Below, piece after piece: positions 13,530 through 61,401 of a stretch of 64,000 bases of DNA. Source of the DNA: Rhizoclosmatium globosum (lineage: Eukaryota; Chytridiomycota; Chytridiomycetes; Chytridiales; Chytriomycetaceae); assembly GCA_002104985.1 (NCBI GenBank), contig MCGO01000155.1, forward strand, positions 1-64,000, given 5' to 3'. The notes under the pieces are model-generated. The model did not search any database. It was not told the DNA's origin and worked only from the letters and a program-made list of their open reading frames with translations. The position numbers and the translations under genes were made by a program. The number at the start of each line of letters is the position of its first letter. Position 1 is the stretch's first letter.

Positions 13530-13734
13530 AACTTTCTATGTCGTCATTTATTGACAAGAAGTGGGGCTTTGGGTTCAGAACTTCAGACCCAAAACCAAAC
13601 TAGAAGGGCATACTGTATTCACCAGGCTATTATTCTCAGGGATATCCCTGCCAAGTATGTTTTTCGGACGAATGCCCACAAAGACTGTGTTTATTTTTGT
13701 GACCTTCTCGAAGAAAATCAGTCAGAGCCCCACT

Positions 13735-19332: not shown

Positions 19333-21367
19333 TCAAGCGGTTTTAACAGAGGAAACCCATCTCTTGACAATTGTCTCGAGTGTACCCAATGGCAACATAC
19401 CGCTGTCAATGATACAAGAGTGGAACTTCTTGATATCAAACTTGTCGCCCAACTCGGCTTCAGCGTAGCGTCTAAGCTCCTTGATCTTGAACTCACCAAC
19501 CTTGTAAGAAAGAGCTTGTCCAGGGCGCACACAGTAGCGCTTCACTTCAGACTCAACTTCAGGACGAGACATTGAAACTTTAGAAAGAATGTAATCAACG
19601 GCTTGTTCAACACTCCATCCCTTGGCATGAAGTCCAGAGTCAACAACCAAACGAACGGCACGGAATTGCTCTGCTTCCAAGCGACCAAAGTATTGGAATG
19701 GGTCCTTGTAGAAACCCATTTCCTCACCAAGGTACTCACAGTAAAGTCCCCATCCCTCCGCATATGCAGTATGGAACGCCATGCGCCGAGCAAGATGCAA
19801 GTCCTCGTTTTCCAGACCAAGAGAAATTTGGTGGTGATGCCCTGGGTTCGCCTCGTGCAGGCAAACAGCCGTCTTTTGGTGCGATGGTTTCACTTTATGC
19901 AACTGCATGTTCGCCGCAAATCGACCGGCCTTCTCAGGAGTTCCAGAAAAGTACAATGCAATTGGCATACGCTGCTCCAAGAATTCAGGCATGGCAACGA
20001 CGGAACAGTCAAACTTGGGGAACTTTTCAAAGTAGTCGACCATCTTTTCCTTGGCGGCTTGAGTGATTTTGGTGTAATCGGCGAGAACGTCGTCGCTGTT
20101 TTCGTAGTACAGGTGAGGGAACTTTTCCTTGTCTTGGATCGCGGTTTGGAATTCCTGGAGGGTTCCTTCGAAACCACAGGCGGTCTTGGCTTCGTTCAGG
20201 AGAGCCTCGATACGAGCGACTTCCTTGATTCCAATTTGGTGGATCTCGTCGGCGCCGTAGCGAACGTTGGTGTTTTGGTAAATGTAGTTGGCATATTGGC
20301 GCTCGTAGTCTGGAAGACCGTAGATACCAGGGTATTGTCTGGCGTGTTGCTGGTATTCCTCAACCAAGAAGCGCTTGGCTCTACTGTATCCTGGGAAGAT
20401 GACATCGCGGATGGCGGAAACTAAAAAGTGCTCGTCACCGAGCAACTCCTTACAGATTTCGGCACGGTTCCATGAGGACTTGATGGCAGCCTCAGTGCTT
20501 TCTTCAAAGGAACAAGGTTCCTCTGGTCCTGCACTTGCACCAAACTTTTGGATCACAAGTTCGATGGATTCCTTGGACAAGGTGATTCCACGACGGATAC
20601 CGGAACGGTAGTGTTCAATCATGTGATCGAATTGCTCACCACAGAGTTCCAATCGCTTTTTATAGTTGTGAAGGTCCTCGGCAGTCTCAACCCGCTGGTA
20701 GTCTTGAAAAATGGATTCGAGGTGAACGAAATATCCATCAAAATGAGAGTTCTCGAGTTCGATGAAGTATCCGTCTTCTCCGGCAATCCCGGCTTAATAA
20801 GTATAAATTTGTAAGTTGGTGGAGATTGAATGTTGAGTGATTTGATGAGATGTCAACACACATACCTTGAACCAAGTTCGCCTCAATAGTATCCAAGAGC
20901 AAGTTCAAGTTAATGGCTTCCTCATCAGAGAGGATGGCCTGAGTCTTGTCGGCAAAGTTTTTCGTGTCAGCCTGAAGGGCCAGCCACTTCTCACGTCTTT
21001 CGAGCTGACCCTTCCTTGAGATGTCAAAGTTGACATCTTCATGTTTGCGGATTCCAAACGCTGCGCAAGAGAACGGATCAATCTCAAATGAGAGGTCAAC
21101 AAAGCGGTCGAGAAGAGACTTGACAGTCACATGGTGGCTGGTGGTAGTGCTTTGAGACACCTTTAGAGAGAAGGGATTAGCTTAATTGGTTGTGGTAAAG
21201 AGTGACAGGTAGGTGGCGTTATTGGTGAGCCTCAAACTTGCGGCAACTCTCTGACCAAACGACAAAGCACCCTCAAGATCCATAACATCGATGAGGAGTC
21301 TAACCTTCTTTCCGTCAGTGGTTGTAGTAACAGTCTTTGTGGTAGTGTGCTTGACGGCAACAGTCAT
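19333..21367 (-). CDS. DUF885 metallopeptidase-like protein, tandem copy 1
   Basis: Three minus-strand exons: 21367-21305, 21160-20866, 20792-19333 (605 residues, a usual DUF885 length). The N terminus MTVAVKHTTTKTV is shared with the second copy. The family hallmark HEANPGHHHQ, an HExxPGHHxQ motif thought to bind metal, lies near base 19850; YAEGWGLYCEYLGEEMG follows, the conserved glutamate-bearing block. DUF885 proteins are predicted zinc carboxypeptidase-like enzymes. No signal peptide is seen, so a cytosolic location is likely. Both copies have identical intron positions and exon lengths. A central 360-bp stretch is far more alike than the flanks. Confidence 0.85.
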
Positions 21368-21481
21368 TTTTGAGAGTATGATTTTCTTGACGACTTCTGC
21401 CCAGCCCTGCCAGGTTTTTAAAATTTTTGCAGGTGCAACGGAAAAAACTGCATCTTTTCGTGGACCAATCTCCAAATTTGA

Positions 21482-21730
21482 ACCAGCCCCAAATCTCTCT
21501 TAATTCCATTTGTTTTTGATCGCACTGATGTATCCTCCATCTCATTCCGTGAGACTTTCTTGTTAAACTGCTCAACACAGGGCTTGCAATATGAATGTTA
21601 TGCGAATAAAACCTGCGGCGATAAGTACCAGTCGAAGCCTTATAGAGAAGTTGTGCTAAAGTACCCTCTGGAGCTCCAGGCCGAGCAAACTTTCAAGAAC
21701 AGTGTCACGTTGAAAATTTTCACTCCTTGA
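21482..21730 (+). pseudogene. Possible relic or orphan exon in the DUF885 spacer
   Basis: An 83-codon open stretch with no ATG lies between the two DUF885 genes and ends at TGA 21728-21730. It has protein-like composition (GLQYECYANKTCGDKYQ, then PLELQAEQTFKNSVTLKIF) and three cysteines, unlike the surrounding AT-rich spacer. It may be the last exon of a decayed gene or chance. No homology was recognised. The rest of the 716-bp spacer (21731-22083) shows nothing further. Confidence 0.25.
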
Positions 21731-22083
21731 CTTCCAAGAGGGCCAAAAAGTACGTCCCATCATGTTATTATTAATGGGTGTGTAAAAATGTGTATGGCGA
21801 CAGAGGGGGTTCAAGTCGAGGTGAGCAGGTGAGTCAGTCGCTTGGAATTAAAATGGCGTTGTCTAATACCTGAATGATATAGCAAATAAGTTAGGGACAG
21901 GAGACATTCTGATACTCGATATCCTTAAGGCTCTACAGACCTCTACAGGCTGTATGGATTCTACTTTGGCAGACAGAGGTTCAGGTATCTGATGCAACAT
22001 ATAATATTAATCCAGAGTGGAACATTATTCATCTATTCTGTAAATTCCATAACTTCTTAGAACGAATGAAAGAAACGAGATAT

Positions 22084-24174
22084 TTAGGCAGCCTTAACAG
22101 ATGCAACCCACTTCTTGATGATGGTTTCAAGTGTCCCCAAAGGAACCATACCACTATCAATGATACAAGAATGGAACTTCTTGATATCAAACTTGTCACC
22201 CAACTCGGCTTCCGCGTAGCGTCTAAGCTCCTTGATCTTGAACTCACCAACCTTGTAAGAAAGAGCTTGTCCAGGAAGGGCGCAGTAACGCTTCACCTCA
22301 GACTCAATCTCTGCACGAGACATGGAAACCTTGGAAAGCATGTAGTCAACCGCCTGCTCAACGCTCCATCCCTTTCCATGAAGCCCAGAGTCAACAACCA
22401 AACGAATCGCACGGAACTGCTCCAACTCCAAGCGACCAAAGTATTGGAATGGATCCTTGTAGAAACCCATTTCCTCACCAAGGTACTCACAGTAAAGTCC
22501 CCATCCCTCCGCATAAGAAGTTTGGAAGACCATTCGTCGGGCAAGGTGCAAGTCCTCGTTTTCAAGACCGAGGGAAACCTGGTGATGGTGGCCTGGGTTC
22601 GCCTCGTGCAAACAGAGAGCCGTCTTTTGGTGGGATGGCTTGATTTTGTGCAAACGCATGTTGGCCATGAATTGACCGGCCTTGGTTGGGGTACCGGAGA
22701 AGTACAAAGCGAGTGGCATTTGCTTTTCCAAGAATTCAGGGACGGGTGCAACGGTGCATTCGAACTTGGGGAACTTTTCAAAGTAGTCGACCATCTTTTC
22801 CTTGGCGGCTTGACAGATTTTGTTGTAATCGGCGAGGACGTCGTCGCTGTTTTCGTAGTACAGGTGAGGGAACTTTTCCTTGTCTTGGATCGCGGTTTGG
22901 AATTCCTGGAGGGTTCCCTCGAAACCACAGGCGGTCTTGGCTTCGTTCAGGAGAGCCTCGATACGAGCGACTTCCTTGATTCCAATTTGGTGGATCTCGT
23001 CGGCGCCGTAACGGACATTGGTGTTTTGGTAAATGTAGTTGGCATATTGGCGCTCGTAGTCTGGAAGACCATAGATACCAGGGTATTGTCTGGCATGTTG
23101 CTGGTATTCCTCAACCAAGAAGCGCTTGGCTCTGCTGTATCCTGGGAAGATGATATCGCGGATAGTGGCAACCAAGAAATGTTCGTCACCAAGCAACTCC
23201 TTGCACTTTTCGGCACGGTTTAATGGAGACTTGATGGCAGCCTCGGTGTCCTCGTCGTAGGAAGAAGGTTGCTCTGGTCCTGCACTACCACCAAACTTTT
23301 GAATCACAAGTTCGATGGATTCCTTGGACAAGGTGATTCCACGACGGATACCGGAACGGAAGTTTTCAATCATGTGATCGAATTGATCCTCACATAGTTC
23401 CAATCTCTTTTTATAGTTGTGGAGGTCTTCGGCAGTCTCCACACGCTGGTAGTTTTGGAAGATGACCTCGAGGTGGACAAACAAACCGCCAAAGTGGGAG
23501 TTTTCAAGTTCAATGGCGTATCCGTCTTCTCCGGCAATTCCGGCTAATTAAGTCAATTTGTAAGTGCACTAGAGATTGAAAAGAGAGTGATATCAACACA
23601 CACACCTTGAACCAAGTTGGCTTCACAAGTATCCAAGAGCACGTTGAGGTTTGTCGCCTCTTCTTCGGAAAGAATGGCCTGGGCCTTGTCAGCAAAGTCC
23701 TTGGCCTCTGTTTGAAGGGCCAACCACTTCTCGCGCTTTTCGAGCTGGGCCTTCTTTGAGATGTCGTAGAGCTTGTCTTCGTGTTTGCGGATTCCAAACT
23801 GGGCACACAAGAACGGGTCAGACTCGAGGGACAGGTCAACGAAGCGATCGAGGAGGGACTTGACAGTAACGTGGTGGCTGGTGGTGGTGCTCTGGGTAAC
23901 CTGTTAGGATGGATTAGTTTATTGTTAGATGCGAAGAAGGAAGGAAGGGAAGGGAAGAGAAGGGCAGGCGGGCTAGGTGGCGTTATATAAGAGCCACATT
24001 ATATTAAAATGCGATCTCTTTACTTCCAGAGTTGATTGAGCACTTCGAGCACTGACTGACTGGCAGCAATCCGATCCAATCAAATCCAATCAAATCAGAG
24101 AAAGAAGGTACCTGGTTCCCGTTGGCAGTAGTAGTAACAGTCTTGGTGGTGGTGTGTTTGACGGCAACAGTCAT
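22084..24174 (-). CDS. DUF885 metallopeptidase-like protein, tandem copy 2
   Basis: Exons 24174-24112, 23900-23606 and 23543-22084 have the same lengths as copy 1 (63, 295 and 1460 nt) and give 605 residues. The metal-binding motif HEANPGHHHQ and the YAEGWGLYCEYLGEEMG block are intact. The first two exons have diverged more (CAQFGIRKHEDKLYDIS versus CAAFGIRKHEDVNFDIS in copy 1) than the middle of exon 3, which is nearly identical. The first intron is longer here (211 nt, 23901-24111). It is predicted to be an active peptidase-like enzyme; the substrate is unknown. Confidence 0.85.
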
Positions 24175-34342: not shown

Positions 34343-35152
34343 TCTTCTCTGTTGCTGATACTTTTGCGTTTTGTTTGATGTTTTTCAATGAGGTTGGGAT
34401 TGTCAACTTTGGGTGGGGGAAGCCGAATTTATATTAATATTCATACGAAAAGAAGTGTATGAACAGTTTCTAAACTAGTAGAGGTGTTTTTTGTTGATAC
34501 AATGCTGGTGTTACTTTTGTAGTTTTTCTATGAACACAGCTGGAATTGTCAGATTTGGATGATAGATGCTTGCTTGGGGTTGTTTTTCGTTGACATGTGA
34601 GAGAGCGAATGAATGAGAGAAGAAGTTTGGTTTTTCGTCTAATATATTAATACAACAAACGCTTGCAAGTGAATCCCCTTTTTCCCCTTCATCCCTCCCC
34701 TTCCCTTCCCTTCTTCAAGCTGCGAGCGTTAGTTGTCTTTGATTGAGAACTGTTTGTTCACCTTGAGTCCTCTGCGATGTTACGGCATCCTCTCATTCCG
34801 TGATCTGGATTGTCATTGGGTCTGGACCACCGTCCCCCACTCAATTTGATTACGATCCCATCTGCCCATATCTCACCCTTCAATTCCTCTTGATACCATC
34901 GGTTATTCACTCCTCCTTCCCTATGAACCTGTGGTTGTGTCAAATGTTTGTTGTTGGTGAAGGAGTGGAAACTTGCAGAGGCTATCTACGCCTAATTCCT
35001 TCCATGCCTTTCCTCTTCTTCTTGATTTAAGCACTGATACTAAATATCCGAATAGACTTAAACGATGCTATTCTCTTTCTCCGTCGTCGCTCTCTTTGCC
35101 TTCCTTTCAAAGGTCTTCACTGCAGCAGGTGTGTTGTGTCTCCTGAATCGCA
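34343..35152. other. Intergenic region upstream of the giant gene
   Basis: No supported gene. It is T-rich and CT-rich. An ATG at 35065 followed by a signal-peptide-like stretch (MLFSFSVVALFAFLSKVF) and a donor at 35129 could be an alternative first exon, but its phase does not join the coding frame of the next exon. The start at 35153, which reads straight into that frame, was therefore preferred. Promoter elements were not recognised. Confidence 0.4.
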
Positions 35153-38100
35153 ATGAGCATCACTGACAATATATTAACACATAGCATCCTATTCATTCCG
35201 TGGTCTTTCGCTGATCATTTGTCGGTGTTTGACGTCTCTTGTCCAAGTGAATGTAATCAGGGGTTCCAAACACTGGTCGCCAACCACCGTGGGAGGATTC
35301 TTGGCTTCAATCTGTCTTCCACTTGTGGACACGCAGGTACGATTCTTGTGTCCTCTTGAATCGCATTTCTAACGTTTGTCTTTTCCTTTCCCCACCCAGG
35401 TCACCTTGAAACTCTCAATCTCGTCACTCCTTTCCGTGTCCATCTCATGCCCTCTTCCATTCTTTCTACTTGTTTGGGAAAGATTTCTATTCCAGAACTC
35501 ACTACGTCTCCAGTTCAAGTTCCACTCAAAATGGTTGAGAAATCATGCTCTCTTTGGGTCTGTCAGGTACGAACGAAGAAGGAAAGAACATCGCCGACAC
35601 AAGTCTTGGGCCAAGAGAACTCTCAAAGCCGTGGAGAAGGAACAGAAGATTGCTCAATTGGTGGAGCTGCTTGCTGGTTATGAACGACTAGTGCACGAGA
35701 TCAAAGTTGCTGAGCTACTTGCTCGCTATGAGAACCTTGTTACCCCGTTCTACGCACTACTGGACTTCTGTGGGTCTATGATTGGCGGGTTCTTGGATCT
35801 CGTCAAGTATGTCTGCTACACTTGGCTGTCCAGTTGCAGTTGGTTATCAGTGCCTTCAAAGCCGCTGTCCGTTCATGACAAGTTCTATCTATCTGTTATC
35901 GTGCCAAATGGCTCAATCACGATGGTTCTTGTCTCCAATGATTCAACTGTTCTTGAAGCAAAACAGGCTGCATCTGTTGGTCTTACAGTTGATGGTCTCC
36001 AACTGTATCGACCTGGCCGGCACTGGAAGCGATTGCCCTCATCTCGAACACTCTATGGTAAGATTCAATTCTTTTAAGGTATCCAGAGCTAATTGTTGGG
36101 TCAGGGCTCGGTCTAAATCCCAGTACTCTTGTTCGTCTTGCGTCACGTCCAAGCCCACACAGCGGATCAAATACCACCAAGACCTCCACTCCAATCACTA
36201 CTTCTAACCATCTTGATTCAGTCGTGGCCAGTCCAGTTATGGTTGAAACAACTGTTTTTCGAAATCCTCGTCTGTCACAGACGACGTCTGGCCAACCCAA
36301 GATTCCATCGACAAAGAAGAGTCATCTCTATTCTGGGATTTGGTTCTCGGACATGAATCCTCAATTATCCCCTTCATGGTCTCCTTCCATCTTTCATCCT
36401 GCAATGGGTGATATCTCGTCCTTGAATCGGTTGTCTGCTGCCAATAGAAACTCCACATCGTCTGTTGTCACAACTCCACCAATCCCATCTTTAGTCATCA
36501 AAAAACTAAGGCTTTACTTGCCACCGTATAAACCAATCACCTTGATTGACTTCATTCTGCCACATATGGTTTCTGAACTTGGTAACTGTTCGACACAATC
36601 TCTTTGCACTATTTCTCATCCAATATAATTTAATAGGTTTATCAATTCCACTCGAGCTTATTGACTCAAGTAACGCTGTCATTACCATACCTCAAAGCCA
36701 CAGTCTTCCACCAGAACCACCTCCTCCTCCACCAACTCCGCCTCCACCACCAACACTCGTCCAGCAACTCCAGTCCAAGACTGTTATCAAAACAAAAGCA
36801 TCCTGGTTCTCTTTGCAATCCATGTCGCAGCATGATTGGATTCCATCACCCGCACTTGCTTTGGCTATCTTTGAAGCTTCAGATGCTGCACCAAGTGCGA
36901 TGGAAAAACAAGCTATTATTAAAACAAGCTTCAATACGTGTTTGACTCAAGTTCTGGCGTTCTTTGTCAAATTGCTGGACGGGAAGCACTTGTTTGTCGA
37001 GATTCGGCAAGACACCACTGTTCTTGAGCTTCGAAATTATCTCTTCCAGTCCAGAAATGTTGCGAAAGCTTTTGCGCTTCAGTTGGTCTTTGGAGGACAG
37101 TATATGGATGACTCTCATTTACTCTCGTGTATGTCTGTAATGTTTTGTTTAGATGTGATCTAACATTTTTAATTTAGCGTACAATCTCGTTGTTGACTCC
37201 ACTATCAGATTTGTTGGGAAACTACCTGGAGGAGCCGATAATATGTACTCAAGTACTGACCCTGACCAAAAAGTTGGTTCATCCAGTACTGATGCGTCAC
37301 CCGTCGAAAGTCAAGAACCACCGTCTGTTCCTCTTCGTGATGAGTCCAATGAGCTTCCATCTCTTGGTGGGTCATCAGTGGCTGGTTCGTCTGTTCCAAG
37401 TTTCAGCCCAATCCAGCCATATTCGCACCGAGGTCGTCGCCCCTTCCATTATTCCCGCCAATCATCCACAACTGTATGTTTTTTTTTTCTTTTTATATTC
37501 GAAATAGTCTTGTCTCACTGGTTTTTTAGGATTCTGATCTCAACGTCGGCGACTCTTCTGCGACTACATCACGTGGTGATTACCTCGACGTAGCGGCAAC
37601 ACCGACACCAAAGAATCTGAACCAAATTGATTATCAGTCTGACGAAGAGACGACTGTCCCACTGAGGTCCAACACTTTAGCCACTTCTGGCTCCGTTGAA
37701 GGCGAAACAAGTTCTATTTCCGTTTTGACTTCTTCTCCGTTGCCTGAATACGCACCATTCGAAATGTCTGGTTTTGATGCGACTTCTATTCCTTCTGCCT
37801 TGTCTCAAACTGTTGAAGCCGAGTCGGGTCGTGCGTCCACGCTGTCTGCTCCTCCGGCTCCAATATCAGAATATGTTTCATTTATTGTGTCTGATTCTGA
37901 GACGGAAACTGAACCCTCAACGTGTAATGAGTCTGACCTTGAATCTGTGGCTGATGTAGAGGTAATATCTTGATTGATGCTCTGTTGAATCTAACTCTTG
38001 ATGATAAGGTCAGTGACATTGATTCCGACCTACTTGATTGGTTTCAGCGATTTGGTTTCGACGACTCAGATGACTCTAACTCTGACTCTGACCCTGACTT

Positions 38101-41100
38101 GGACTTGGGTGTGGTGGACTTGGAGGTGGACTCGGACTCAGCTTCGGACATGGACTCTGTTGGTGGACTGGAGGAGTTGCTGAATGGAATCTCAAGTTTG
38201 AATATGGACAGCTTTGATGCAGTCAATCTTTTTGAATTGGAGCAAAACCTGGCAGATCTGGATCTTGCGTATGGCACTGCTCCGTTCATATCAGCTGCTG
38301 GAAAAGGCAAAGGAGCAAAGAAAGCAAAAGAGTCAAAACCGGCCAAAAAATCAGTGAAAGTGAAAGCAGCAACAGCGAAATCAGCGAAAGGGAAAGGAAA
38401 GAGAGCAGTGGAGGATGATGATGCGGATGATGTTGAAGAGGATCCTCCTTCGGATCCAGTACCAATGGTGAGTTTAGCAAAATGTTTCTCGTCATGATTC
38501 TAACCACAGTATTATTGTTTCGTAATAGGAGCCTTTGTCTCTTACCCGCGTCAAAGTACCTCGAGGTTCCATCTATGTTGATGCCAGCACATCATTTATT
38601 CCCAACACCCTGAGGCCACGCTACCGCCTGTTTGCTCGTGCTTATGATAGATTCTTGAGTACCTCACGATCGCTACTTAGTTGTCAAGCCTTTTTGGATA
38701 CTATTGACAGTATGACCATCCATGAAGCTCTGGCCTCTTTTGAATCTCAGTTTGGGTTCATTCATCCGGCCGGGCCTGCCTTGATTGCAATTCGTAATCG
38801 CATTATTTCCGTGCGCAGACACAATGTTGAAAACAATCTGGAGGGTGAAACGCAGTTCAGTATAGTACCTCAACTGTACAAGTGTCCTCAGGGTATGATT
38901 GATGGATTGGATCACTGCAGCTGTTTCACAGGGGACTGGAGCTACAGTATCAATCAAGCAACTTTTAATGTACTTCAAGAGACCCATGCTGCCACTGTAT
39001 TCCCTCTGAGTGGAAGTTCTGAACAGTTGAGGAAGGAGTTGGTGTCTCGAAGGCAAAACGTTGTTCCAACTGTTGTGTTTATCTTGTCGCTGAATCGGTT
39101 AGTTCTCTTTCTTACAGTAGAATTGTTGGAGTTGACGCATTTTGATTTATAGGTATCTGTTCTGTCCAAAGATACTCCTGGACGTTGGTGTGTGTGCTGA
39201 ACCAGTTCTGGGAAACAAGGTTGCCAATGTTGAGGCTATTCACGAAGCCATGTACAAAGTGACTTTGGCGCTTTTAGTCAAAGCTGGTGCCGCTTCTTTG
39301 ATGGATGAAGCAGAAGTCGATGTTGGTGAAGATGGTATAGGTATTGGCGGTTTTGGTGTTGCTGGTGTTGGTGTTGGTGTTGGTGCTGGTGCTGGTGCTG
39401 AACCTGGAACTGGTGTTGGTATTGGTGTTGGTGCTGGTGGGAGTGGGAGTGGGAGAGGAAGCGGGAGTGATGGCATGGAACGTCTTGTTGCAGACGAAGG
39501 ATTCACGGCTGTTGGCAGTGGGAAACCTGGGATTCTCGGAGGGTCATCCAATGTACTTGGAGGTGGTGGGGTCAGAGATGTTGGCAGAACATCCAATGTA
39601 CTTGGTGGGGGAAGACAAGAAAGACAAAGTAGCTCTGTGTTTGGAAGCTGGCCTCAACGTCCTCGACCAGACAGCAGCGAAGCTTGGAAGAAGGAGCACT
39701 TCATACTAATGGACAAATTGCAGAATCAAGATTATCGACTTGCGGAGGTATTTACCGAACAACACTTCTTGGTATGATGTTTCATTTTTGTTTGTCATAC
39801 TCATTTCAACACTTAGAATGGCTTCTGTCCACTGTGTCAAACTTCTCACCAAAAGTCAAGTGACGCGGCAACGTTGGCTGCGTTTGAAGCCCACTTGTTG
39901 GCTCAACATTTTCATCGACCTGCTTCGTCACGGCCTACTGTTCCTTCGAGAGGATCGTACACAGATGCCAATCTTTTCAACATCCATCTTGCTCGACTTA
40001 TTTCAAACTCACCCAAAGCTGGATCACAGGTTTGTTTTGAATCTTGCCAATTTTATATTTTACTTACGTGGTGGTTCTGTTGTAGGACGATACTTGTCCT
40101 GTCTGCCTTCAAGATGGATATTGTCAAGACTTGATACGACACATGATTGAGTGACACCCAAACTATGATCCAGCTGTTACCGCTGTTCCTACTGTTCCTA
40201 CTGTTCCTACTGCTCCCGTCGCTCCCGTAGCCCCCGTAGCCCCTGTTGTACCTGTCGCTCCCTTAGCCCTCGTTGCACCCGTTGCACCCGTTGCTCCTGA
40301 TTCTCCCGTTGCTCCCGTTGCTCCCGTTGCTCCCGTTGCTCCTGTTGCTCCTGATTCTCCGGCTCTGGCTGATCCAACTACTACTGTCACTCCATCCACA
40401 AGTACCAACTCAGTTGTGAATCGACAATTGGTGGCTGGTTCTGACGCCTCTCGCTGTGTCACGTTGCTTGGGATTATGGACGCTCGTCTAGTAAACCAGG
40501 CCTTCGAAATGGGATCAAGTCACGTGTATTCAGTCAATCATCCAGCAACAGCAGCCCACTCTATGCGTCCAGGCAGTTATCCAATTTGGATCAAGACCAA
40601 CGATGGAAAACAGTTGAAACCTCCACGGACAGCCATGACAAATCGGGAGCTTAAACTTCATGACTTTATTGTTCTTCGCCAACTGGCTGCTACCTGGCAG
40701 GCGTTCACAAATGGTGATCCGACTGACCTTGACATGTCTAACGTATATCACGCCGTGAAGAATCAAGACGTTTCTCAAAGCTATGGTCCGTACTTGGCGC
40801 ACCGACTTGATTTCGCAGCAGCCAATAAATCCAAGCTGAGTGACAAGGAGGCAATAGAGTTGTTTGGTGCAGTTCAGCAGTACAACAAGAAGGGCGGGAT
40901 CAAGAATGTGACTGGGGTTATTGTGGAAACACTGCACTGGACAAACAGTGCACGTTTATTGAACACCCCCATTCATCAACACCGAGTCCAAGTTGCTCAG
41001 GACAACCAGCACCGTCTTGATCTTCAAGTTGATGCAGTTGGAAACGTTGTTGTTGGTGGTGTTGACGTTTTGCACGATAATGAAGACGTTGAGATGGGAG

Positions 41101-44100
41101 AGGCACATGGTGAGTGATTGTTGTTGAACCACGTATCAAAACTTACAATTTGAAAAGGATTGGGAGAGTGTCAGCTATTCATTAATGCCACTCCAATCAG
41201 TCCCGCATTTTTTCTCCAGTCTTCTGAAAACTACACAGAGCTGATGGACTTGAGCAAACTAATGTTGATTGGACTTTCTTTGCTCAACAAGAAGGTTGTT
41301 GGTCGCAGCCTCAAAGTACAAAAGAATGGTATGCATCACGTATTCCAATCAGCGTTGACGTTACTGAACGGGCTTGCTGACAATGGCCCAACGGTTACAA
41401 ATGGAGAATGGTGTTCTGGGTCTGTCTTGTTCAAACACTATTCGAAAGCACCTGATTTCACCAAAGAACCAATGACGTTTTCAGGAGCTACGGAGCTTGG
41501 TGTTGTGTTCTTCAAGAATAAGGATTCAAAGATATCTCATGTATGTTTTTTCCACTTCTTTACAAGAATTAAAACTGAGCATTGAACAATAGATTCTACC
41601 TTTGTTTCAAGTGCTGGCTACAACTTCTTTCAATCCCACCAGGAATCAACCTGTCTCTGCCAAAATCAAAGTGCTGGGCCTTCACTCAATTCTTATGGGC
41701 GAGACTGTGGTTCTTCGGGATTTCCGATATCAAACAACTCATTTGCTCCACGTGGGGAAAGAGTCACATCAAAGACTGTATTCCATTTCTCAGTCATTCA
41801 TAAGACCTGACACCAACGAAACCCAAGTCTATCTTTGGAATGAACTTATTTCTCCAGCTTGGAATGATACTCTTCGACGTGTTCGAGGCCACTCTGTTGC
41901 TGTTGGAATCCAAAACTTTGTTGCTGGCTTGGTACATGAACAGCCTGCCTCTCTTGTTTCTGTGTCTGGCAGTCAAGACAATGCCTCTGTGTACCGAAAC
42001 AACTTCAATACAGTCATAAGGAAGCTCTTATCTCGTCACCCAAAGTTCAAGAATTCCAACAATCTTGTTTTGAACGCTGCCATCGCAACCCACTTTGGTC
42101 GTGGTCGGGTCGCACAACCCATGTCGTCTCCACTGTCTATCTCGAAGCTTGGATATGCAAACATGCGCGCAGTAGTCCAAAGGTGGTTAAAGCTGGAAGA
42201 AACTCTGCCGTATATGGAGCGACGTTTTGAAGGTGGCGCGCAGCTGACTCTTGATTTTGTCCTAAATCAAAGAGTTCAAGAGCGCTTTGATGATGATGAC
42301 TGGGATTTTGTATTTCCTCAGCACAACTTTCCGAATCTGACACTTCAAACCAATATTCTTCCTTCTGATTCCAAAGTCTTGAACATCCGTCCAGTTGTTG
42401 TTTCCTTGGATGGATCCAAGTTTACTTTCAAACTGGATACAAAGGAGCCCACATGTCTGGTACTGTGCCTTCACAACGAGTTCCGCAACTGGGCGAGGTT
42501 CCGCGTAACTGGTCCAACAATAATCAATACGAGGCTTTGTTTCTGCCGCTTTTCAAACAGAACAAGACTGGAGATTCTGAGACTGAGAGTGACAAGACCA
42601 AGAGTGATGGCCCCATTGAGATTGAAGAAGTTCAAGTCTTGGTATAATATTTAACGTATGGAACCTTAATGTAATCTCTAACCCAAATACCTAGAAACAA
42701 CCTCGTCGCAAGATTGATACTTCAATCTTTGAACTAGACAACAAAAAGATAAAACAAATGGCTCCCAAAGTGATCAAGATTCTCAAAGAAGAGCAGGAAC
42801 GTCAGCTGAAACAAGCATTTGTGAATCGCCGCAACCTTGCTGATGATGCAACCCAAGAACAAATTGATCTTGCGTAAGTGTTCTTTTACTTCAACGTTGT
42901 CATCAAAGAACTGACCTTTCTGGGTTTAGGGACATGACTGCTGCACAAGCAGACATGATACTTGAGCGGAAAAGGATGACGGTTGACAAGAAAGACCACG
43001 AACAGCATTTCTTGAATACATATGTAGCTTATGGTATGTTTCTCAGATAACTTTATACTCCTCTTTGTTTTTCTCATTTCATCACTTTTGCTGAATAGGA
43101 ACGGTTCCAAATGAAGCTGAAAGACAGTCGCTCAAAGCTTACGTGGACCTTTCAACCTTGATCTTTGACACTGTCCACGTGCTTACTCCTGGAACCATCA
43201 ATTTGTTCAACAAGTTGCATGCAGCCGCTGTAAACATCAGACTTCAAAATGGCCCGCCTGAAGATCAGAATCAATATCCAGTGCATCACAGAATATTATC
43301 GTTTCTAGACTCTCCAACATTCAAAAGAAACCAGAGCCCTGAGATTGAGAATAATCGTCTATCTGTTGGTCAGCAACCTCAGCATCTTCTTGAGATTCTA
43401 CGCGACCTGTTCGGAGATAAAAATTCAAACCCACTGAGAATTCTGTTTGATATTGTTGTCGAACTTGATGGTCTCAAACAGTCAAAGTCGAGTTCTTGGG
43501 ATCGAATGATTATCTTGGCCATGTTGTTGGGAGCAGCAAATACCAGTGAATCGCTTCAAGTTTGGGAAGAAGAAATGAATGATGGAGCTGTTGGGTTCAT
43601 CACCGATTCTGGACAGTATTGGTACTATCCTACAGACCACTCTGCCAAACAGCTCGCGCTCTTAAGGACTGCTGTCGTTACTCAACTTTTGGATCCAGAA
43701 TCTGGCTTCAACATCCCCAACAAGGAACATTACCTTGCAGTGTACTTGAAGGACTCTAGCATCTCAGCGTTGAAATTGAGTCTGAGCATCTGGCTTGAAG
43801 ATGACTTGAAGAGAGAAAAGAAGGCTGCAAAGGTGGCTGAAGCAGACAGTAGTGACAATGAAGAAAGTCTTCAGGGTGAGGATAATGAGGATTACATTCC
43901 ACGCCAACAGAACACAAGTGAAGATACATCTGGAGAGGTTGTTTATCGAGTTCGACTTGCACCAGGTGTTGGTCAAGCTCTTCCAGTCCAAAATCTTCAT
44001 GATGCTGCTCAAAGTTTCTCAGATCTCTTGTTTAATCGGTTCCCTGATTCCAAAGTCCCATTGACTGATGCAGAACTTGGTACCACTAGAGCCATGGATG

Positions 44101-47100
44101 TGATTATTGAAACTGGCCCGTTCAGTATGGTTGATGGGTTTCTGGTTGGTGCTGATCATCAAGTGACTCTGAATTCTTTGAGTCCACATGAACTTTCCAT
44201 CTATCAGTATGTCATGAATTTACCTGCCTACCAACTGGACGAGGAAATCGATGAAACTATACAGTCGCAGAATAATATTGAGCGTTACAGGCATCTGGCA
44301 ATCATCACTGGAGTTCGGCCTGCTGTCGGAGGCAACTTTTACGCCAAGGCTCTTTCCCAGTTTCTGGATGCTCTTGTTGTTTCATTTGTCATTAAGCCCG
44401 TGAAAGAAATTGATGTTGAAATACCTGTTGGAGTTGGAGTTGGACTTGGAGTTGGAGGTGGAGTTGGAGTTCAAATGGAAGAGGGAGTGGATGAAGAAGA
44501 CAAAGCCCCAGAGGACAACTCCCAGCTAACTCTTGCTCAACTAAGAACCTTGTTCAAGACCTCCATTCTTCAATATATCCAGCCTGTTCAGTGGGGCTTG
44601 TGTCTGGAAACTGGAACACGATTAGTATCTTCAAAGGCATATGTCAACATCACACATTTATGCCGAGATGATCTTGTAAACTTGTTCACTGATATATTTA
44701 AGCTGAGCAAGAGCAAGTATTTGTTGTTTGGGAATGAAGGATACTTGGAAAACAAGGTCGGTGAACAGCTCAATAACACAGGTGTTGTGCAGGGTGCGTT
44801 CAAAGGCGCTATTGCGAGATACAAGACATGGACTACAACTGGCCTGAAATTTGGTAATCTTCTTTCCTTTCTTTGACATCATGTCTTTCATTGCGCTTTC
44901 CTAATCCAACACATTCAACCAGGAAAATCATTCCATGACCAGTTCAGCCACTCAAATCGTCGATATCTCTCAGTTGATGGTCACACCATATTTCCCAGAC
45001 TGCCTGACTCACAAGTTCGTGGGATGCAGTCTGCTGTCTTTGATCAAAACAAACAAACAGCTGCACACACTGAGGGCTATTTCCTTGATTCTTGTGATGA
45101 ACCCACCAGAGACATTCCATGGCCGCCTAACTTCCCTTCTGTCAATTTGCATTACTTGAACTTGATGCGTCTGGCTTTAGAAAAAGGAGGTCCACTCTGT
45201 CAGAGACTTGTTGTTCATCCACTGGGATTCAAGATATTTGCGAGTGCAAGGAATGTCATTCACCTTTGTCTGACAAAGAACTCCACGATTAACTTCCCGA
45301 CTTCCAAGAATGAATTCGTGACGTATAGGCCAGGTGCAATCAGTATTACGTATGACAGGGAAACTGGAATCTTCAAATCAATGCTGCCGCTTCAAACTCA
45401 CCACATGAACACCCATGAATTAGGACAGATTACAAAACATTATTCATACAACAACGCCCCTCGACGGTATCCAACAACAACACCCGCAGTCAACCGCAAT
45501 TCCATTGATGTCATCTTTAATGAAGTCCAAGAGTTATTGTCAGATTCTTTGAAAGAGATGGCTGAGACACGAAAATACTATGCTGCAAATCCATCAAACT
45601 TGAAGGCACGCGAGGAATATCGGCATGCATCGCACTTGGTTCGGTACATTCGAAATCGAATTCAGAATGAATGTTCTGCAAAGCACCGCCGCAAACTGGA
45701 AGATGCCATGACTGTTTATGCTCGTCAACACAACTTTGGTTCGTTTCGTTACGACTGTGTCAAATTGGGCGCAGTACATGCTGAAGATACGGAATTATTC
45801 AAATCTCGGATGGGATCCTTCCACAGTCCTGATGTTTGGATCACAAATCCATCAGAAGCTGTTCAGTCTGCGTTTCGGAATGCGTTTGGAACATCTCGTT
45901 TATTGTTGAGCAGTGATCCAGGTGGAAGAACAGTGGAAACGCAGATGGCGAGTACAGGCCATGTTGTTCAGATTGGAGTCGGATTTGAAGCAGTGATTTG
46001 TCGTCTTCAGAAACGCATCAGCACTCTTCAATCGTTTCGAGACAGGGCCATTGATCAAATTGACACTGTGATAGTGCTACGGAGTCGTGTTGCCGCTGCT
46101 GAATTAGATCTTGTTCAATACGCTTCTGGTGATCAAGTTGTGGCAAAAGAAACATTGCGACTGGAAAATCTTGTACTTGCAGCAGAACAGGAGTTGGAGG
46201 CTAGGTTGAAGGAGCTTCGCGCGTCAGCAAGAATGGTTCGTAAACCAACTCCTGGCCCAGATGACATGAATCTGGTGGACAAGGAAAATGATGTTCTGGA
46301 TGAAGTGGGGAGAGTGGATAAGGAGTTGAAAAAGATGCGAAATGAATTCAATGTTACCTTTGATGGAGGTGGTGTTGGAGGAGGTGGTGGAGATGACACC
46401 AACCTTTTGTCGCGCCTGCTCAAGAACGCACAGGACAAATTGAACAAGTACGCTCAACGAGTTCGTCGATCTGCTGCAGAATGGAATTCTGGTGCCGACT
46501 CATATGCCACATCGGACTTCAACTCCAAAACTACAAACAAGAAAGTGACTTCTGGGAAGGATGGTATTCCAAGTGAGTGTGATTGATCACTTAATTTTGA
46601 ATCTAACCTCTTTTATCTTAGAATGGGTCAAGACTGTCCTCTCATATGCGGCCCATGCTTCCATCAGGAAACAAACTACAGTAATGGCGTACAAAAAGTC
46701 GGAAAATGACGGTGCATTCTTTAATCCTGGTGGACCTGCCTGGCATATACCCACAATGAAGAGAGTCATGGCCAAAGAATTTGATCACCAGTTTCCTCTT
46801 GTTGGTAGAGTTGGAAAGATCAAGGCTGTAGTCATAGTGACTGAGGTAAGAGTCTCATGCATTTTACTTTATTTAACCTGTTCACTGTTCACTAGATTGG
46901 GTCAACAATCATGTGCTTTTGTGGCCGCATCTCTCGAATCGGGAAGGCAAAGACGTTCAAGTGTTCGAATCCACGGTGCAGTGGTCGTGCAATATGTTCA
47001 CGTGATAGTCTCACCTTTCGTCTCCCACGCGACATCAAAAGCGGCTTATTCATTGAGAATCTAACGTGGGCAATTGCGTTGATGCGGGTTCATCACCACA

Positions 47101-47471
47101 TTCGAGGTGGTGGGACGGGAGGTGCCGAAAACAATGATGGCAACGGCGATCCAGGAGGTGGAGGACCGGGTGGAGGAAGGAGAGGAGGAGGGAGTGGTGG
47201 AGTCAGACGGGAAGGCGGAGGACAAAGTGGTGGCAACAACAACAAACCTCCTCCGGCAAAGAAACAGCGTATTGTTAAAGGGCGTTTGGAATATGTTGCA
47301 GTGGAGGAGGTGGAGAGGGAAGGGAGATTGGACGAAGGTGGGATTGGTTCCACTTCGAGGCAGGCTGAGGATCACTACGGAGGATCTCAGCAAATGGACA
47401 ACAAATCCACACACTTTCCTATCTTGCAATTGGCCTCCCGTGGAGCTGCTGGACACGGTAGCGACGTATAG
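35153..47471 (+). CDS. Giant ubiquitin-like / zinc-finger / TnpB-Fanzor-like nuclease protein
   Basis: Twenty-one exons: 35153-35336, 35400-35566, 35604-36057, 36105-36581, 36637-37128, 37178-37473, 37530-37961, 38009-38467, 38529-39097, 39153-39747, 39817-40029, 40086-41109, 41158-41540, 41593-42459, 42498-42641, 42695-42873, 42930-43033, 43099-44853, 44923-46572, 46622-46845, 46896-47471. All GT-AG phases agree and the total is exactly 3,748 codons, with one in-frame TGA at 40152-40154. Order of parts: two ubiquitin-like domains (about 209-286 and 530-611), acidic and Lys-rich linkers, two C2H2-like fingers (about 1376-1475), low-complexity Val-Ala-Pro and Gly-Val repeats, a long unrecognised core, and a C-terminal nuclease-like part (Asp3263 in SSDPGGRT, Glu3556 in VTEIGST, then a cysteine cluster and RD at 3592-3593). 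Family assignment of the C terminus is inference from motif order. Confidence 0.6.
35878..37240 (+). other. Two ubiquitin-like domains within the giant protein
   Basis: Domain 1 (about residues 209-286) reads [31 protein letters not shown] and [17 protein letters not shown], matching the beta-grasp order of ubiquitin, including the LxF-AGK and STLHL positions. Domain 2 (about 530-611) is closer: [45 protein letters not shown]. It ends in Gly-Gly after a KLP, but the chain continues, so processing or conjugation is unproven. A polyproline stretch (near 36714-36760) lies between them. Confidence 0.75.
39350..39465 (+). repeat. Gly-Val/Gly-Ala coding minisatellite
   Basis: A (GGTGTT)n-like stretch in exon 10 of the giant gene encodes alternating Gly-Val and Gly-Ala followed by Gly-Ser repeats. 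A smaller Gly-Val tract occurs near 44421-44475. Both keep the frame open and look like disordered linkers. Confidence 0.8.
39817..40154 (+). other. Paired C2H2-like fingers followed by an in-frame TGA
   Basis: Exon 11 encodes CPLCQTSH followed by HLLAQHFH. Exon 12 opens with [10 protein letters not shown] and RHMIE, immediately followed by TGA (40152-40154) and then CACCCA in the same frame. A Trp at the TGA would complete a normal finger spacing (C-x2-C-x11-H with a second His at the next codon). The downstream frame continues without shift for about 950 bases. Either a nonsense mutation, a natural end of a shorter product, or an assembly error is possible. Confidence 0.6.
40175..40375 (+). 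repeat. Val-Ala-Pro coding minisatellite
   Basis: Tandem degenerate nine-base units (GCTCCCGTT and variants) encode a run of Pro-Val-Ala triplets after the finger pair of the giant gene. On the opposite strand the same units read as Gly-Ala-Thr collagen-like triplets, which is a shadow of the repeat. Confidence 0.85.
45880..47000 (+). other. Nuclease-like C-terminal region of the giant protein
   Basis: The region contains [18 protein letters not shown] (RuvC-I-like DPG motif, Asp codon at 45915), a long coiled coil (about 46000-46450), then [12 protein letters not shown] (Glu codon at 46843) directly before [11 protein letters not shown] and [17 protein letters not shown]. This is the order of TnpB and Fanzor proteins: RuvC-I Asp, a Glu just upstream of the Ser/Thr-x-x-Cys of the zinc ribbon, and a final Arg-Asp. 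Cysteine spacings are atypical (CxC and CxxxxC), and the usual NAARN after RD is absent, so catalytic competence is doubtful. Confidence 0.55.
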
Positions 47472-47482
47472 CTGATGTAAGT
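47352..47482 (+). repeat. 131-bp terminal repeat, copy A (3' end of the giant gene)
   Basis: The final coding segment of the giant gene plus its stop (TAG 47469-47471) and the following GATGTAAGT recurs at 61271-61401 in opposite orientation with three differences, and more weakly at 26938-27002. Homology to copy B stops exactly at the P450 side near 47482 and upstream near 47352. The segment encodes a C-terminal peptide containing [14 protein letters not shown]. Confidence 0.85.
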
Positions 47483-47487
47483 GTTTT

Positions 47488-48595
47488 TTATTTTACTGTC
47501 ATTTTGCTCATTTGCTTTAGCGTCCATTGGATAGCGATGGAGACCGTGTCAATGGTGCCGGCAGTAAGGTTGTTGAGCATATCACGCAGGGCCGAGGGTG
47601 ATACGGTAGAAGCAAGAGAGGGGTTGTGAATGATAAGCTCCATAATGCTGGCACCGTGATTGTCGTCCGTGTCTAACTTTTCGTCGACTTTTCCGTATTT
47701 TTCACGGGACATTTTCATGAGACGCTCAATCAAGGCGTTACCAGTTTGACGGACTCGTTTCGCTTCATTGATGTGAGCATTAGGCAGCCACTTGAGCCAT
47801 GGAAAAAACGCGCATTTGTCCGTGGCAGCGCCTGCCAACTCAAAGACCTTGTCTGTATTTTCAAGGAAGGTTGCACACACTTTGTCACCGACGTGATCAA
47901 TTGATAGGCCAAAGCAAATGAGCAAAATGACAGAAAAGTTGAAGCGATCAAGTTGAGATTTCAAGTCCGCGTTTAAGTCCACGTGCTTGGCACCAAGTTG
48001 GTTCACAAGCGACTTCAGAAACACAAAGGTTTCAGCCTCAAGAACAGCACTTTGTTTAGCGAGGGCAGAGCGGGACAGCGAAAGCTGCACGAGTTTGCGG
48101 AAGGATTTAAAGTTAGGATTTGAGTGGTGGGTGAGTGTCGGAAGGCCGCCAAGGATAATGTTGCCAAGAACCATGTCCTGTGGCCTGTCATTGAATGCGG
48201 GAATAGTTACGAGGTCTCTCTGCAGGTAGTTTGGTAATTAAGTGAGATGCATCAGACACAAGTTATCCACAAGACATCCAACAACAACAATAACAAACCA
48301 GGACAAATGGATCCGAGACAACAAGAACGCGTTTCACACCAAGGCGTATCGTAAACACGGGGCCATACCGCTCGCGCCAGGCCTTGAACGCCACGTGTGG
48401 AAGATCACCGAGATCAGAGTAGTTTCCATCGAGCGAGAACGGGAACGTGAACAACGGCGGACTAGGACCCGGTGGCAGCTTCGTGCTACTACTACTGCCA
48501 TTCATGCAATTCATGCCATTCAGAAACATGAATGCTGCGACTAAGCCCGCGCCAACGAGCGTGATGAGTGTAAAAGCACTTTCAAGCGTGTCCAT
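47488..48595 (-). pseudogene. Cytochrome P450, 3' half missing
   Basis: Two minus-strand exons, 48595-48299 and 48219-47488 (342 residues). An N-terminal membrane anchor (FTLITLVGAGLVAAFMF) and the proline-rich hinge KLPPGPSPP are followed by typical class II P450 sequence (AWRERYGPVFTIRLG; NDRPQDMVLGN) and the I-helix oxygen-binding motif AGTIDT with IQWTL. The frame then stops after about 12 residues at the junction with the 3' end of the giant gene. The K-helix ExxR and the heme-binding FxxGxRxCxG block, about 150 residues, are absent. I did not find them on the far side of the giant gene. No monooxygenase activity is expected. Confidence 0.8.
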
Positions 48596-48804
48596 ACTAT
48601 TTTTAGATGTGCCAGGAGCAGGATTGATTTGATTGGTTGTTTAAACTTTAGTACTAGTACTGTATTTTTCCTGAAGGAAGACTCAAAAAAAACCCCTCCT
48701 CCCCCCAAACCGACCAATAATACAGTAGTGACCCATGGGGTTTTCAAACGACCCCCACAGGTACATAATCGATAAAAAAGAATAAAAAGAAAAACCCAAC
48801 AAAA

Positions 48805-61270: not shown

Positions 61271-61401
61271 ACTTACATCAGCTATACGTCGCTACCGTGT
61301 CCAGCAGCTCCACGGGAGGCCAATTGCAAGATAGGAAAGTGTGTGGAATTGTTGTCCATTTGCTGAGATCCTCCGTAGTCATCTTCAGCCTGCCTCGAAG
61401 T
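61271..61401 (-). repeat. 131-bp terminal repeat, copy B
   Basis: On the minus strand this equals 47352-47482 with three substitutions. The coding frame, including [14 protein letters not shown] and the stop, is intact. It begins just 28 bp after the stop of the coiled-coil gene and is not joined to any recognisable upstream part of the giant gene. Confidence 0.9.

Follow-up and report, generated by a model that had tools for sequence, protein, structure and literature searches.

A repeated ~13-kb element of Rhizoclosmatium globosum encodes a giant protein with a ubiquitin-like domain and a candidate Fanzor-related C terminus

The closest described systems are the Fanzor1 elements CRe-1, CRe-2 and CRe-3 of Chlamydomonas reinhardtii, which contain 5–10 exons and occur as copies with 5' truncation, intact 3' ends and internal deletions (Bao and Jurka 2013, PMC3627910). 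Their target-site duplications are about 7–19 bp long, some reaching 443 bp, and a Helitron2 mode of transposition has been proposed for them (PMC3627910). A second point of reference is SpuFz1, whose locus spans ~2.1 kb with inverted repeats; in it and other Fanzors, a conserved element end lies beside or overlaps the last codons and is followed by a variable flank (Saito et al. 2023, PMC10432273).

The locus described here shares features with both. It lies in a 64,000-nucleotide stretch of the chytrid Rhizoclosmatium globosum, which we call the window. Like the CRe elements, it has an intron-bearing, Fanzor-like gene, and its copies, too, keep their 3' ends while showing 5' truncation, internal deletions and target duplications that vary in length. 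Unlike them, it encodes a protein of ~3,740 residues with a ubiquitin-like domain, has no hairpin at the 3' end of the gene and no Helitron terminus that we could find, and bears extra tails on its 3' side. It shares with SpuFz1 the conserved end around the last codons and the variable flank, but it is ~13 kb long and without detectable sequence similarity, and its omega-RNA is a candidate from sequence alone.

A giant gene within a repeated element

The window contains one damaged copy of a ~13-kb repeated mobile element (Table 1), and the giant gene at the locus is genuine. A genome search found 19 further long copies; the 20 are spread over 8 of 420 contigs, often in clusters, and several have decayed. 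Introns are kept in the genomic copies, internal gaps are present, and 5' truncation is frequent, with 14 of 36 end matches lacking the 5' part of the query. At the 3' side the copies end alike, at a GTAAGT terminus 6–11 nt past the stop codon, and the flanks beyond differ, except that two copies have long flanks in common. The repeat nature of the locus had been overlooked in the initial annotation.

The exon chain is confirmed, and its frame is broken in the window copy. Our gene model comprises 18 exons from 35401 to 47471 and ~3,740 codons; the model does not open with a start codon, and possible exons before 35401 lie outside it. GT and AG flank 13 of the 17 first-draft introns in all eight aligned copies, and the other four junctions, off by 1–3 nt, were placed anew on the window sequence alone. 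Three of eight assembled copies have no internal stop over the ~3,740 codons, and the three pairs among them give dN/dS of 0.27–0.32 over the whole frame. P0002, the 536-aa public protein of the locus and a C-terminal piece, has last two introns identical to ours. The exon chain first proposed, a single frame of about 3,750 codons over 21 exons, survives in 18-exon form; the window copy itself is not open, having an in-frame TGA and a 7-bp loss. The transposon origin suggested earlier is supported by copy number, by the 3' end that copies share despite differing flanks, by the duplicated target sites of some copies and by constraint on the intact ones; we do not favour the other option raised, a domesticated derivative, for so broken a copy.

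The family appears confined to the genus in the searches we made. Giant-length protein queries found no homologues outside it (E ≤ 1 among the 2000 candidates sharing most words; E ≤ 0.1 among 6864 candidates), and an exon-length profile search returned eight proteins, all from Rhizoclosmatium. An IMG/VR scan with A1 gave 68 pattern matches, none confirmed, and an Rfam scan of 34000–56500 gave no match up to E 1. None of the eight scanned exon ORFs of the giant gene matched a profile for reverse transcriptase, polymerase or Rep, and pieces of the distant paralogue L029, single-copy as judged by the piece searched, had no RVT match.

Table 1. Features of the element and its surroundings (window positions)
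Feature	Position	Strand	Remarks
Element copy	34654..47482	+	Right end common to copies; left end shorter than in 7 other near-full copies compared
First model exon	35401..36057	+	Contains the putative first beta-grasp-like stretch
Ubiquitin-like domain exons	36637..37473	+	Exons 36637-37128 and 37178-37473; domain about 36957-37128 plus 37178-37233, ending KLPGG
Linker exons	38009..40029	+	Acidic and basic linkers, glycine-rich stretch, possible C2H2-like finger (by eye)
In-frame TGA	40152..40154	+	Window copy; intact copies read through
7-bp deletion (frameshift)	42433..42434	+	Window copy versus 7/7 aligned copies
Long central exon	43099..44853	+	No Pfam match; resembles L029
Exon with RuvC-I-like DPG	44923..46572	+	Asp codon 45914-45916
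Exon ending VIVTE	46622..46845	+	Glu codon 46843-46845, conserved in L029
Last exon	46896..47471	+	GSTIM; cysteines 46914 to 46979 (CxC...CxxxxC); RD 47028-47033; glycine-rich tail; stop TAG 47469-47471
3' terminal segment	47318..47482	+	Ends GTAAGT; conserved about equally at all codon positions; candidate omega-RNA scaffold
Flank past element end	47483..47520	+	Differs in most copies; would be the guide position in a Fanzor system
Neighbouring Fanzor-like element	48658 to beyond 54.7 kb	-	Multicopy; C terminus PF07282 E 2.1e-4, below cut-off
Solo 3' end fragment	61271..61401	-	Same family, 5'-truncated

Ubiquitin-like domain and C terminus

By profile, the giant protein certainly contains one ubiquitin-like domain. 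Two had been proposed. The second matches PF00240 at 31.7 bits (E=1.3e-7; curated cut-off 25.4), its PDB match to ubiquitin spans residues 3–77 of 77, and it is kept, with its GG, in the family B copy read. The first stretch matched RBD alone, at E 0.21 and below cut-off, and as a ubiquitin-like domain it is only putative. The domain resembles ubiquitin over 75 residues ending in GG, but it is embedded, ends KLPGG or VQVRGG, and is followed by the rest of the giant protein. It might recruit or dodge host ubiquitin/proteasome factors, or be cleaved after GG; this is a guess. The Fanzors known to us are far smaller than this protein. Our literature search, with most subscription papers outside its reach, found no description of a TnpB or Fanzor joined to a ubiquitin-like domain, and PMC12660748, which mentions Fanzor and ubiquitin, deals with another subject.

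The C terminus is partly supported as a distant relative of TnpB and Fanzor and a candidate RNA-guided nuclease. The published signature is D-X(125,275)-[TS]-[TS]-X-X-[C4 zinc finger]-X(5,50)-RD (PMC3627910). All its parts are present, and the DPG, Glu, cysteine cluster and RD noted in the initial annotation are indeed there. The spacer from the DPG Asp is 295, over the published limit of 275 (235 in L029, 233 in L060), the C4 spacing is unlike CxxC...CxxC, and L029 lacks one zinc cysteine (DFC). D331, E624 and R669-D670 are invariant across A, B and L029, the last at 28% identity. A motif of the Fanzor kind, with the spacer widened to 300 after the sequence had been seen and the C4 part written loosely, occurred in none of 20,000 shuffles of P0002. 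Some ORFs of the same genome that match the TnpB zinc ribbon weakly have the same end layout as the giant.

Profile and structure searches did not add to this resemblance. The C terminus matched no TnpB / OrfB zinc-ribbon profile in Pfam, NCBIfam or PHROGs, and no TnpB, Fanzor or RuvC model in these or in PDB sequences. Profile comparison with the Fanzor-like (L060-type) ORFs of its own genome aligned only 40 coiled-coil columns at a non-significant probability of 3–5%, and AlphaFold on P0002 (13 sequences) gave a low-confidence model (pLDDT 43, pTM 0.21). Because neither the profiles nor the model identify it, the C terminus stays a candidate nuclease; the Fanzor-like reading draws on the nearly matched motif, the conserved D, E and RD, the shared layout and nucleotide constraint at the element end.

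The 3' end and insertion junctions

Over the last ~160 nt, conservation seems to act on the nucleic acid itself, as would be expected of an omega-RNA scaffold. When the window copy is set against one copy of family B, third codon positions agree at 48 of 52 sites in the last coding stretch and at 335 of 544 in exon 16 (p=2.6e-6), although against the rest of exon 18 (110 of 138) the excess reaches only p=0.049. A 22-nt terminus is retained in L029 with a score of 17, reached by none of 2000 shuffles, and the order TAG, 2–5 nt, GTRAGT recurs in A, B, L029, L060/L062 and L061. RNA folding is weak, with z from -1.80 to 0.05 in seven copies (20 control windows: mean 0.26, sd 1.18, minimum -2.6), and double changes occur in 2 of 44 consensus pairs. 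The terminal 20 bp, at up to 3 mismatches, occur at 30 places in the genome, 28 of them pieces of the giant-element family; the other two are at chance level, a reversed-sequence control finding five, and the search revealed no repeat of another kind with this terminus.

Target duplications accompany some copies. Clear ones of 17–32 bp occur at 3 of 12 junction pairs: L030 (32 bp, 1 mismatch), L043 (25 bp, 2) and L044 (17 bp, 1), each scoring above all 132 mismatched control pairs. Among six other long copies examined, C413_129 has an exact 18-bp repeat. The remaining nine pairs, the window copy included, show no duplication above controls. Weaker signals from alignment with shuffles at L034, C13_488, C253 and C413_62 rose little or not at all above mismatched pairs, L034 falling within these controls. 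Tails lie between the 3' end and the duplication; that of L030 joins 43 nt resembling another copy's flank to 86 nt resembling a nearby inverted stretch. By eye, the copies' 3' ends have no poly(A) or simple repeat. A DNA search for a second P450 gene copy, which could have served as an empty site, found none.

Proposed spread of the element and alternatives

We put at roughly 0.6 the probability that the giant protein of this ~13-kb element is a TnpB/Fanzor relative carrying one or more ubiquitin-like domains and that the element spreads by 3'-anchored copying. In this model the C terminus would act as a RuvC-type nuclease. The RNA directing it would take its scaffold from the conserved 3' end and its guide from the flank. 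Cleavage by this nuclease would initiate new copies at the 3' end of the element, and copying would often stop short. The template could be unspliced RNA, if an externally supplied reverse transcriptase carries out target-primed reverse transcription, or DNA, if copying is by one-ended rolling circle. The 3' tails favour RNA; the retained introns favour DNA.

Two versions of the copying step are compatible with this model, and we hold each only tentatively. The element may be a non-autonomous Helitron2-like element mobilized by a Rep-helicase in trans through one-ended rolling circle, the giant protein helping or riding along. The traits of the CRe elements recur here: truncated copies with intact 3' ends, internal gaps, duplications and introns. 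Helitron_like_N loci are also present in the genome, with 20 matches of which 18 exceed the cut-off. Against this, no hairpin is found at 47420–47482 (DNA fold z 0.46, matched or bettered by 130 of 200 shuffles), a test with no bearing on the true ends should these be in the tails; in the genome search at up to 3 mismatches, the 20-bp terminus was seen above chance in the giant-element family only; and tails past the end are unexpected if copying begins exactly there. Just as tentatively, the reverse transcriptase of a resident retroelement may copy the unspliced transcript at a nicked target, the giant protein giving the nick or only the RNA. Truncation at the 5' end, such duplications, flank-carrying tails and template switching are typical of target-primed reverse transcription. 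All are seen or suggested here, the 17–32 bp duplications and source-flank tails among them, and the genome holds 139 RVT_1 matches at E up to 0.01. Yet the copies keep introns, their 3' ends have no poly(A) or simple repeat, and their terminus was found on no other repeat. Of the LINE hallmarks, 5' truncation and variable-length target duplications are present, and an encoded reverse transcriptase was not found in the eight exon ORFs or L029 pieces.

Other readings would change the nature of the protein or of the family. We think it rather unlikely that the C terminus is no nuclease and that its D, E, Cys and RD reflect chance or structure in an unrelated, undescribed giant selfish element. 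The missing profile and fold support, overlong spacer and C4 spacing would fit such a protein, but the shuffles never yielded the motif, the acidic positions survive in the 28%-identity paralogue, and the end layout is common to ORFs with a weak TnpB zinc-ribbon match. Far less probable still is that a host gene family grew by ordinary local duplication, with no transposition. Clustering on few contigs, the two copies with long common flanks and the single-copy L029 would suit it; the junctions disfavour it, with a common 3' end beside differing flanks, short 5'-truncated pieces and target duplications, and several copies are decayed.

The locus could inform Fanzor biology more widely. A working Fanzor at its C terminus would be the first with a ubiquitin-like domain that our search turned up, and a hint of contact between eukaryotic RNA-guided nucleases and the ubiquitin system; a protein without nuclease would mark an undescribed kind of giant selfish element. 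Numerous copies whose ends can be read, all in one genome, offer a test bed for the role of Fanzor in transposition, a question raised in 2013 (PMC3627910). More speculatively, and we consider this improbable, there may be a class of eukaryotic mobile elements whose 3'-anchored copying is driven by their own giant RNA-guided nuclease, itself containing a ubiquitin-like domain, the 3' end serving as both guide-RNA scaffold and copying start; the stop codon followed by GTRAGT would mark its members. The neighbouring element in the window resembles the giant in being multicopy with a Fanzor-like C terminus, and belongs to a different family with a different 3' end.

A giant gene in a transposable element

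The giant gene belongs to a transposable element. The assembly (56.9 Mb, 420 contigs, with the window as part of contig C63), searched with exon 44877-46583, held 19 further long matches, 12 at 89–98% identity (family A) and 7 at 76–78% (family B). Long copies, including the window's, lie on eight contigs and are frequently clustered. Similarity between copies has definite limits in the window, and the flanks are unlike. At the right end the sequence is TAG CTGAT GTAAGT; on the left the boundary varies, with seven other near-full copies extending 19 to 192 bp further to differing stopping points.

An 18-exon model was built on an alignment of the window element with seven other copies. GT and AG occur at 13 of the 17 drafted intron junctions in all eight copies; at the other four the draft was 1–3 nt off, and final placement was judged on the window sequence alone. 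The last two introns are spliced in the same way in P0002 (Rhizoclosmatium globosum BCR33DRAFT_727891), a public 536-residue protein corresponding to the C-terminal part of the proposed gene. Under this model ~3,740 codons are free of internal stops in three of the eight copies (C413_129, C13_146 and C13_488), and a one-base shift alters the last ~22 codons of both C13 copies and removes the final stop. The remainder comprise one copy with a single stop, three with breaking frame shifts, and the window copy, which carries a TGA and lacks 7 bp. The single giant frame of the initial annotation is therefore a real gene read in a damaged copy. Separately, exons 2–3, around the ubiquitin-like domain, diverge strongly between C413_129 and the two C13 copies (dS 0.7–1.8 versus 0.1–0.4 in other exons), as though lineages had exchanged them.

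Ubiquitin-like and Fanzor-like parts

Two ubiquitin-like domains had been proposed near the N terminus. The second is borne out: a stretch across two exons scores 31.7 bits against PF00240 (cut-off 25.4, E 1.3e-7) and aligns with ubiquitin chains in the PDB over residues 3-77 of 77, the closing GG among them. The first is unproven, since its sole profile match was RBD at E 0.21. The confirmed domain is kept in the family B copy read, where it ends VQVRGG, with dN 0.52 and dS 1.42 between the two copies. Any role for it in the giant protein would be a guess. We know of no ubiquitin-like–Fanzor fusion. The literature searched yielded none, and, within the limits of one protein search, relatives of the giant turned up in Rhizoclosmatium alone.

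The Fanzor/TnpB motif, as defined by Bao and Jurka (PMC3627910), is D-X(125,275)-[TS]-[TS]-X-X-C4-X(5,50)-RD. The giant's C terminus has DPG, 295 residues, S-T-I-M, CxC...CxxxxC and RD, so that DPG, cysteine cluster and RD stand in the order first claimed, but the spacer exceeds the published 275 and C4 is matched loosely. If a spacer of up to 300 and a relaxed C4 are allowed, P0002 contains the motif, starting either at the DPG Asp or at any of 14 later Asp residues, and 0 of 20,000 shuffles contain it. No TnpB/Fanzor profile matched the giant C terminus, profile–profile comparison with Fanzor-like ORFs of the same genome gave nothing significant, and an AlphaFold model of P0002 was too poor to use (pLDDT 43). 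The RuvC-type fold is inferred. Those ORFs (L060–L062, 385–415 aa) have weak, below-cut-off zinc-ribbon matches to TnpB (E about 0.003 for L060 and L061; 0.01–0.016 in the genome search) and contain a stretch of similar appearance, ECQSTVLC.

L029, a distant paralogue, is 21–30% identical to the giant over long stretches and retains the D, the Glu of VTE/YTE and RD, with one cysteine lost. It is single-copy as judged by a 303-residue query piece, and no ubiquitin-like part was detected in the surrounding 9.9 kb (tblastn, E<=0.01). It could represent an earlier form, or else a gene that has been domesticated. The giant element is best filed, with caution, among Fanzor-bearing elements; of the family features tested, one was not found and three gave no clear outcome.

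Probable copying from a shared 3' end

The last 200 bp of the element match 36 genome places, 17 of them whole. Fourteen lack the 5' part of the query yet reach within 7 nt of its 3' end: nine are short, with nothing more of the element within the few hundred bases retrieved, and five have further element sequence upstream, past a gap. The other five lack 3' bases, three of them (L031–L033) continuing into a diverged end. The terminal 20 bp are seen only in the giant's family: at <=3 mismatches they occur at 30 places, 28 within these loci, versus 5 for a reversed control.

For 11 fragments plus the window copy, 12 pairs in all, sequence before the 5' junction was compared with that after the 3' end; the comparison excluded L037, L042, L031–L033 and also L035, which duplicates L034. 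Duplications of 32 bp (1 mismatch) at L030, 25 bp (2) at L043 and 17 bp (1) at L044 exceeded all 132 mismatched pairs; the other nine, window copy included, had none above these controls, and in a separate test on flanks of 60 nt some other pairs showed weaker signals that did not clearly surpass mismatched pairs. Among six other long copies checked, one (C413_129) shows a perfect 18-bp repeat, located 195 nt upstream of the position equivalent to 34654. Across these four sites, the second repeat copies sit at distances of 6, 23, 48 and 122 nt past GTAAGT, and therefore the inserted DNA has a tail. Some tails are common to small groups of copies. That of L030 joins 43 nt (98%) resembling the flank of copy C413:108139 to 86 nt (98%) resembling a nearby inverted stretch, C63:79068-79153, with an 8-nt overlap, a make-up that looks like template switching.

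The giant element resembles the CRe Fanzor1 elements of Chlamydomonas reinhardtii: both have intact 3' ends alongside 5' truncation, duplications of variable length and retained introns. For the CRe elements this pattern was interpreted as one-ended rolling-circle copying by Helitron2 (PMC3627910). DNA folding found no hairpin at the giant gene's 3' end. Tails beyond the 3' end point to an RNA template, whereas introns retained in the copies point to DNA, and we therefore limit the firm claim to 3'-anchored copying, by which new copies would be made. A cut by the Fanzor-like part would be the likeliest start; profile scans of eight of the giant's exon ORFs found no polymerase.

The 3' end as nucleic acid, and neighbouring features

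Across 15 copies, the difference in conservation between codon positions dwindles over the final ~165 nt, and third positions there are roughly as well preserved as first and second ones. In a comparison of the window copy with a single family B copy, 48/52 third positions of the last coding stretch are identical, versus 335/544 in exon 16 (p 2.6e-6) and 110/138 elsewhere in exon 18 (p 0.049). Some copies are shifted by one base near the end while the DNA remains alike, and L029 retains 22 nt of the end, interrupted by a single mismatch and a single gap. A TAG stop, 2-5 nt, then GTRAGT recurs in families A and B, L029, L060/L062 and L061. In Fanzor systems the conserved end of the element supplies the RNA scaffold and can extend over the final codons (17 in GtFz1), and a variable extension serves as the guide (PMC10432273); the giant element's 3' layout fits this. 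RNA folding is weak (z -1.80 to 0.05 in seven copies, against a mean of 0.26, an sd of 1.18 and a minimum of -2.6 in 20 control windows), and a consensus fold has double changes at 2 of 44 pairs. GTRAGT also reads as a 5' splice site, and splicing may be its real meaning. In L060 and L062 the stop and GTGAGT are followed by a stretch that resembles an intron: it has CTAAC and a pyrimidine tract, ends in ATAG, and is common to both up to AAAATAGTACT.

Coordinates of features (window positions unless a locus is named)
Feature	Position	Strand	Remark
Giant element	34654-47482		similarity between copies
Exon model	35401 on		18 exons; upstream limit tentative
Exons 2–3	36105-37233		divergent
Exons with the ubiquitin-like domain	36637-37128 + 37178-37473		PF00240
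TGA	40152-40154		window copy
7-bp loss	near 42433		window copy
One-base shift	near 47403		C13_146, C13_488
P450-like gene	47488-48640	-	named by eye; adjoins giant element's 3' end
~45-49-nt piece	48592-48640		ends AAAAATAGTA; between second element and P450-like gene
Second multicopy element	48658 to beyond 54762	-	Fanzor-like gene (KYCHHCGTMWDRDRNAARN)
Two tandem pairs of similar ORFs	12000-15544 and 19333-23547		one pair transporter-like, by eye
L029	C334:98000-107900		paralogue
Intron-like stretch	L060 1658-1725		also in L062

The P450-like gene breaks off in the I-helix region, and its remainder was not seen across the giant element. The Fanzor-like gene of the second element matches PF07282 below cut-off (E 2.1e-4); four further copies are 98–99% identical, and in all five similarity stops at 48657-48658. 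The piece ending AAAAATAGTA turned up at just three other places: directly downstream of the Fanzor-like genes in L029 (8731-8779) and L061 (207-250), and near another zinc-ribbon match on C201.
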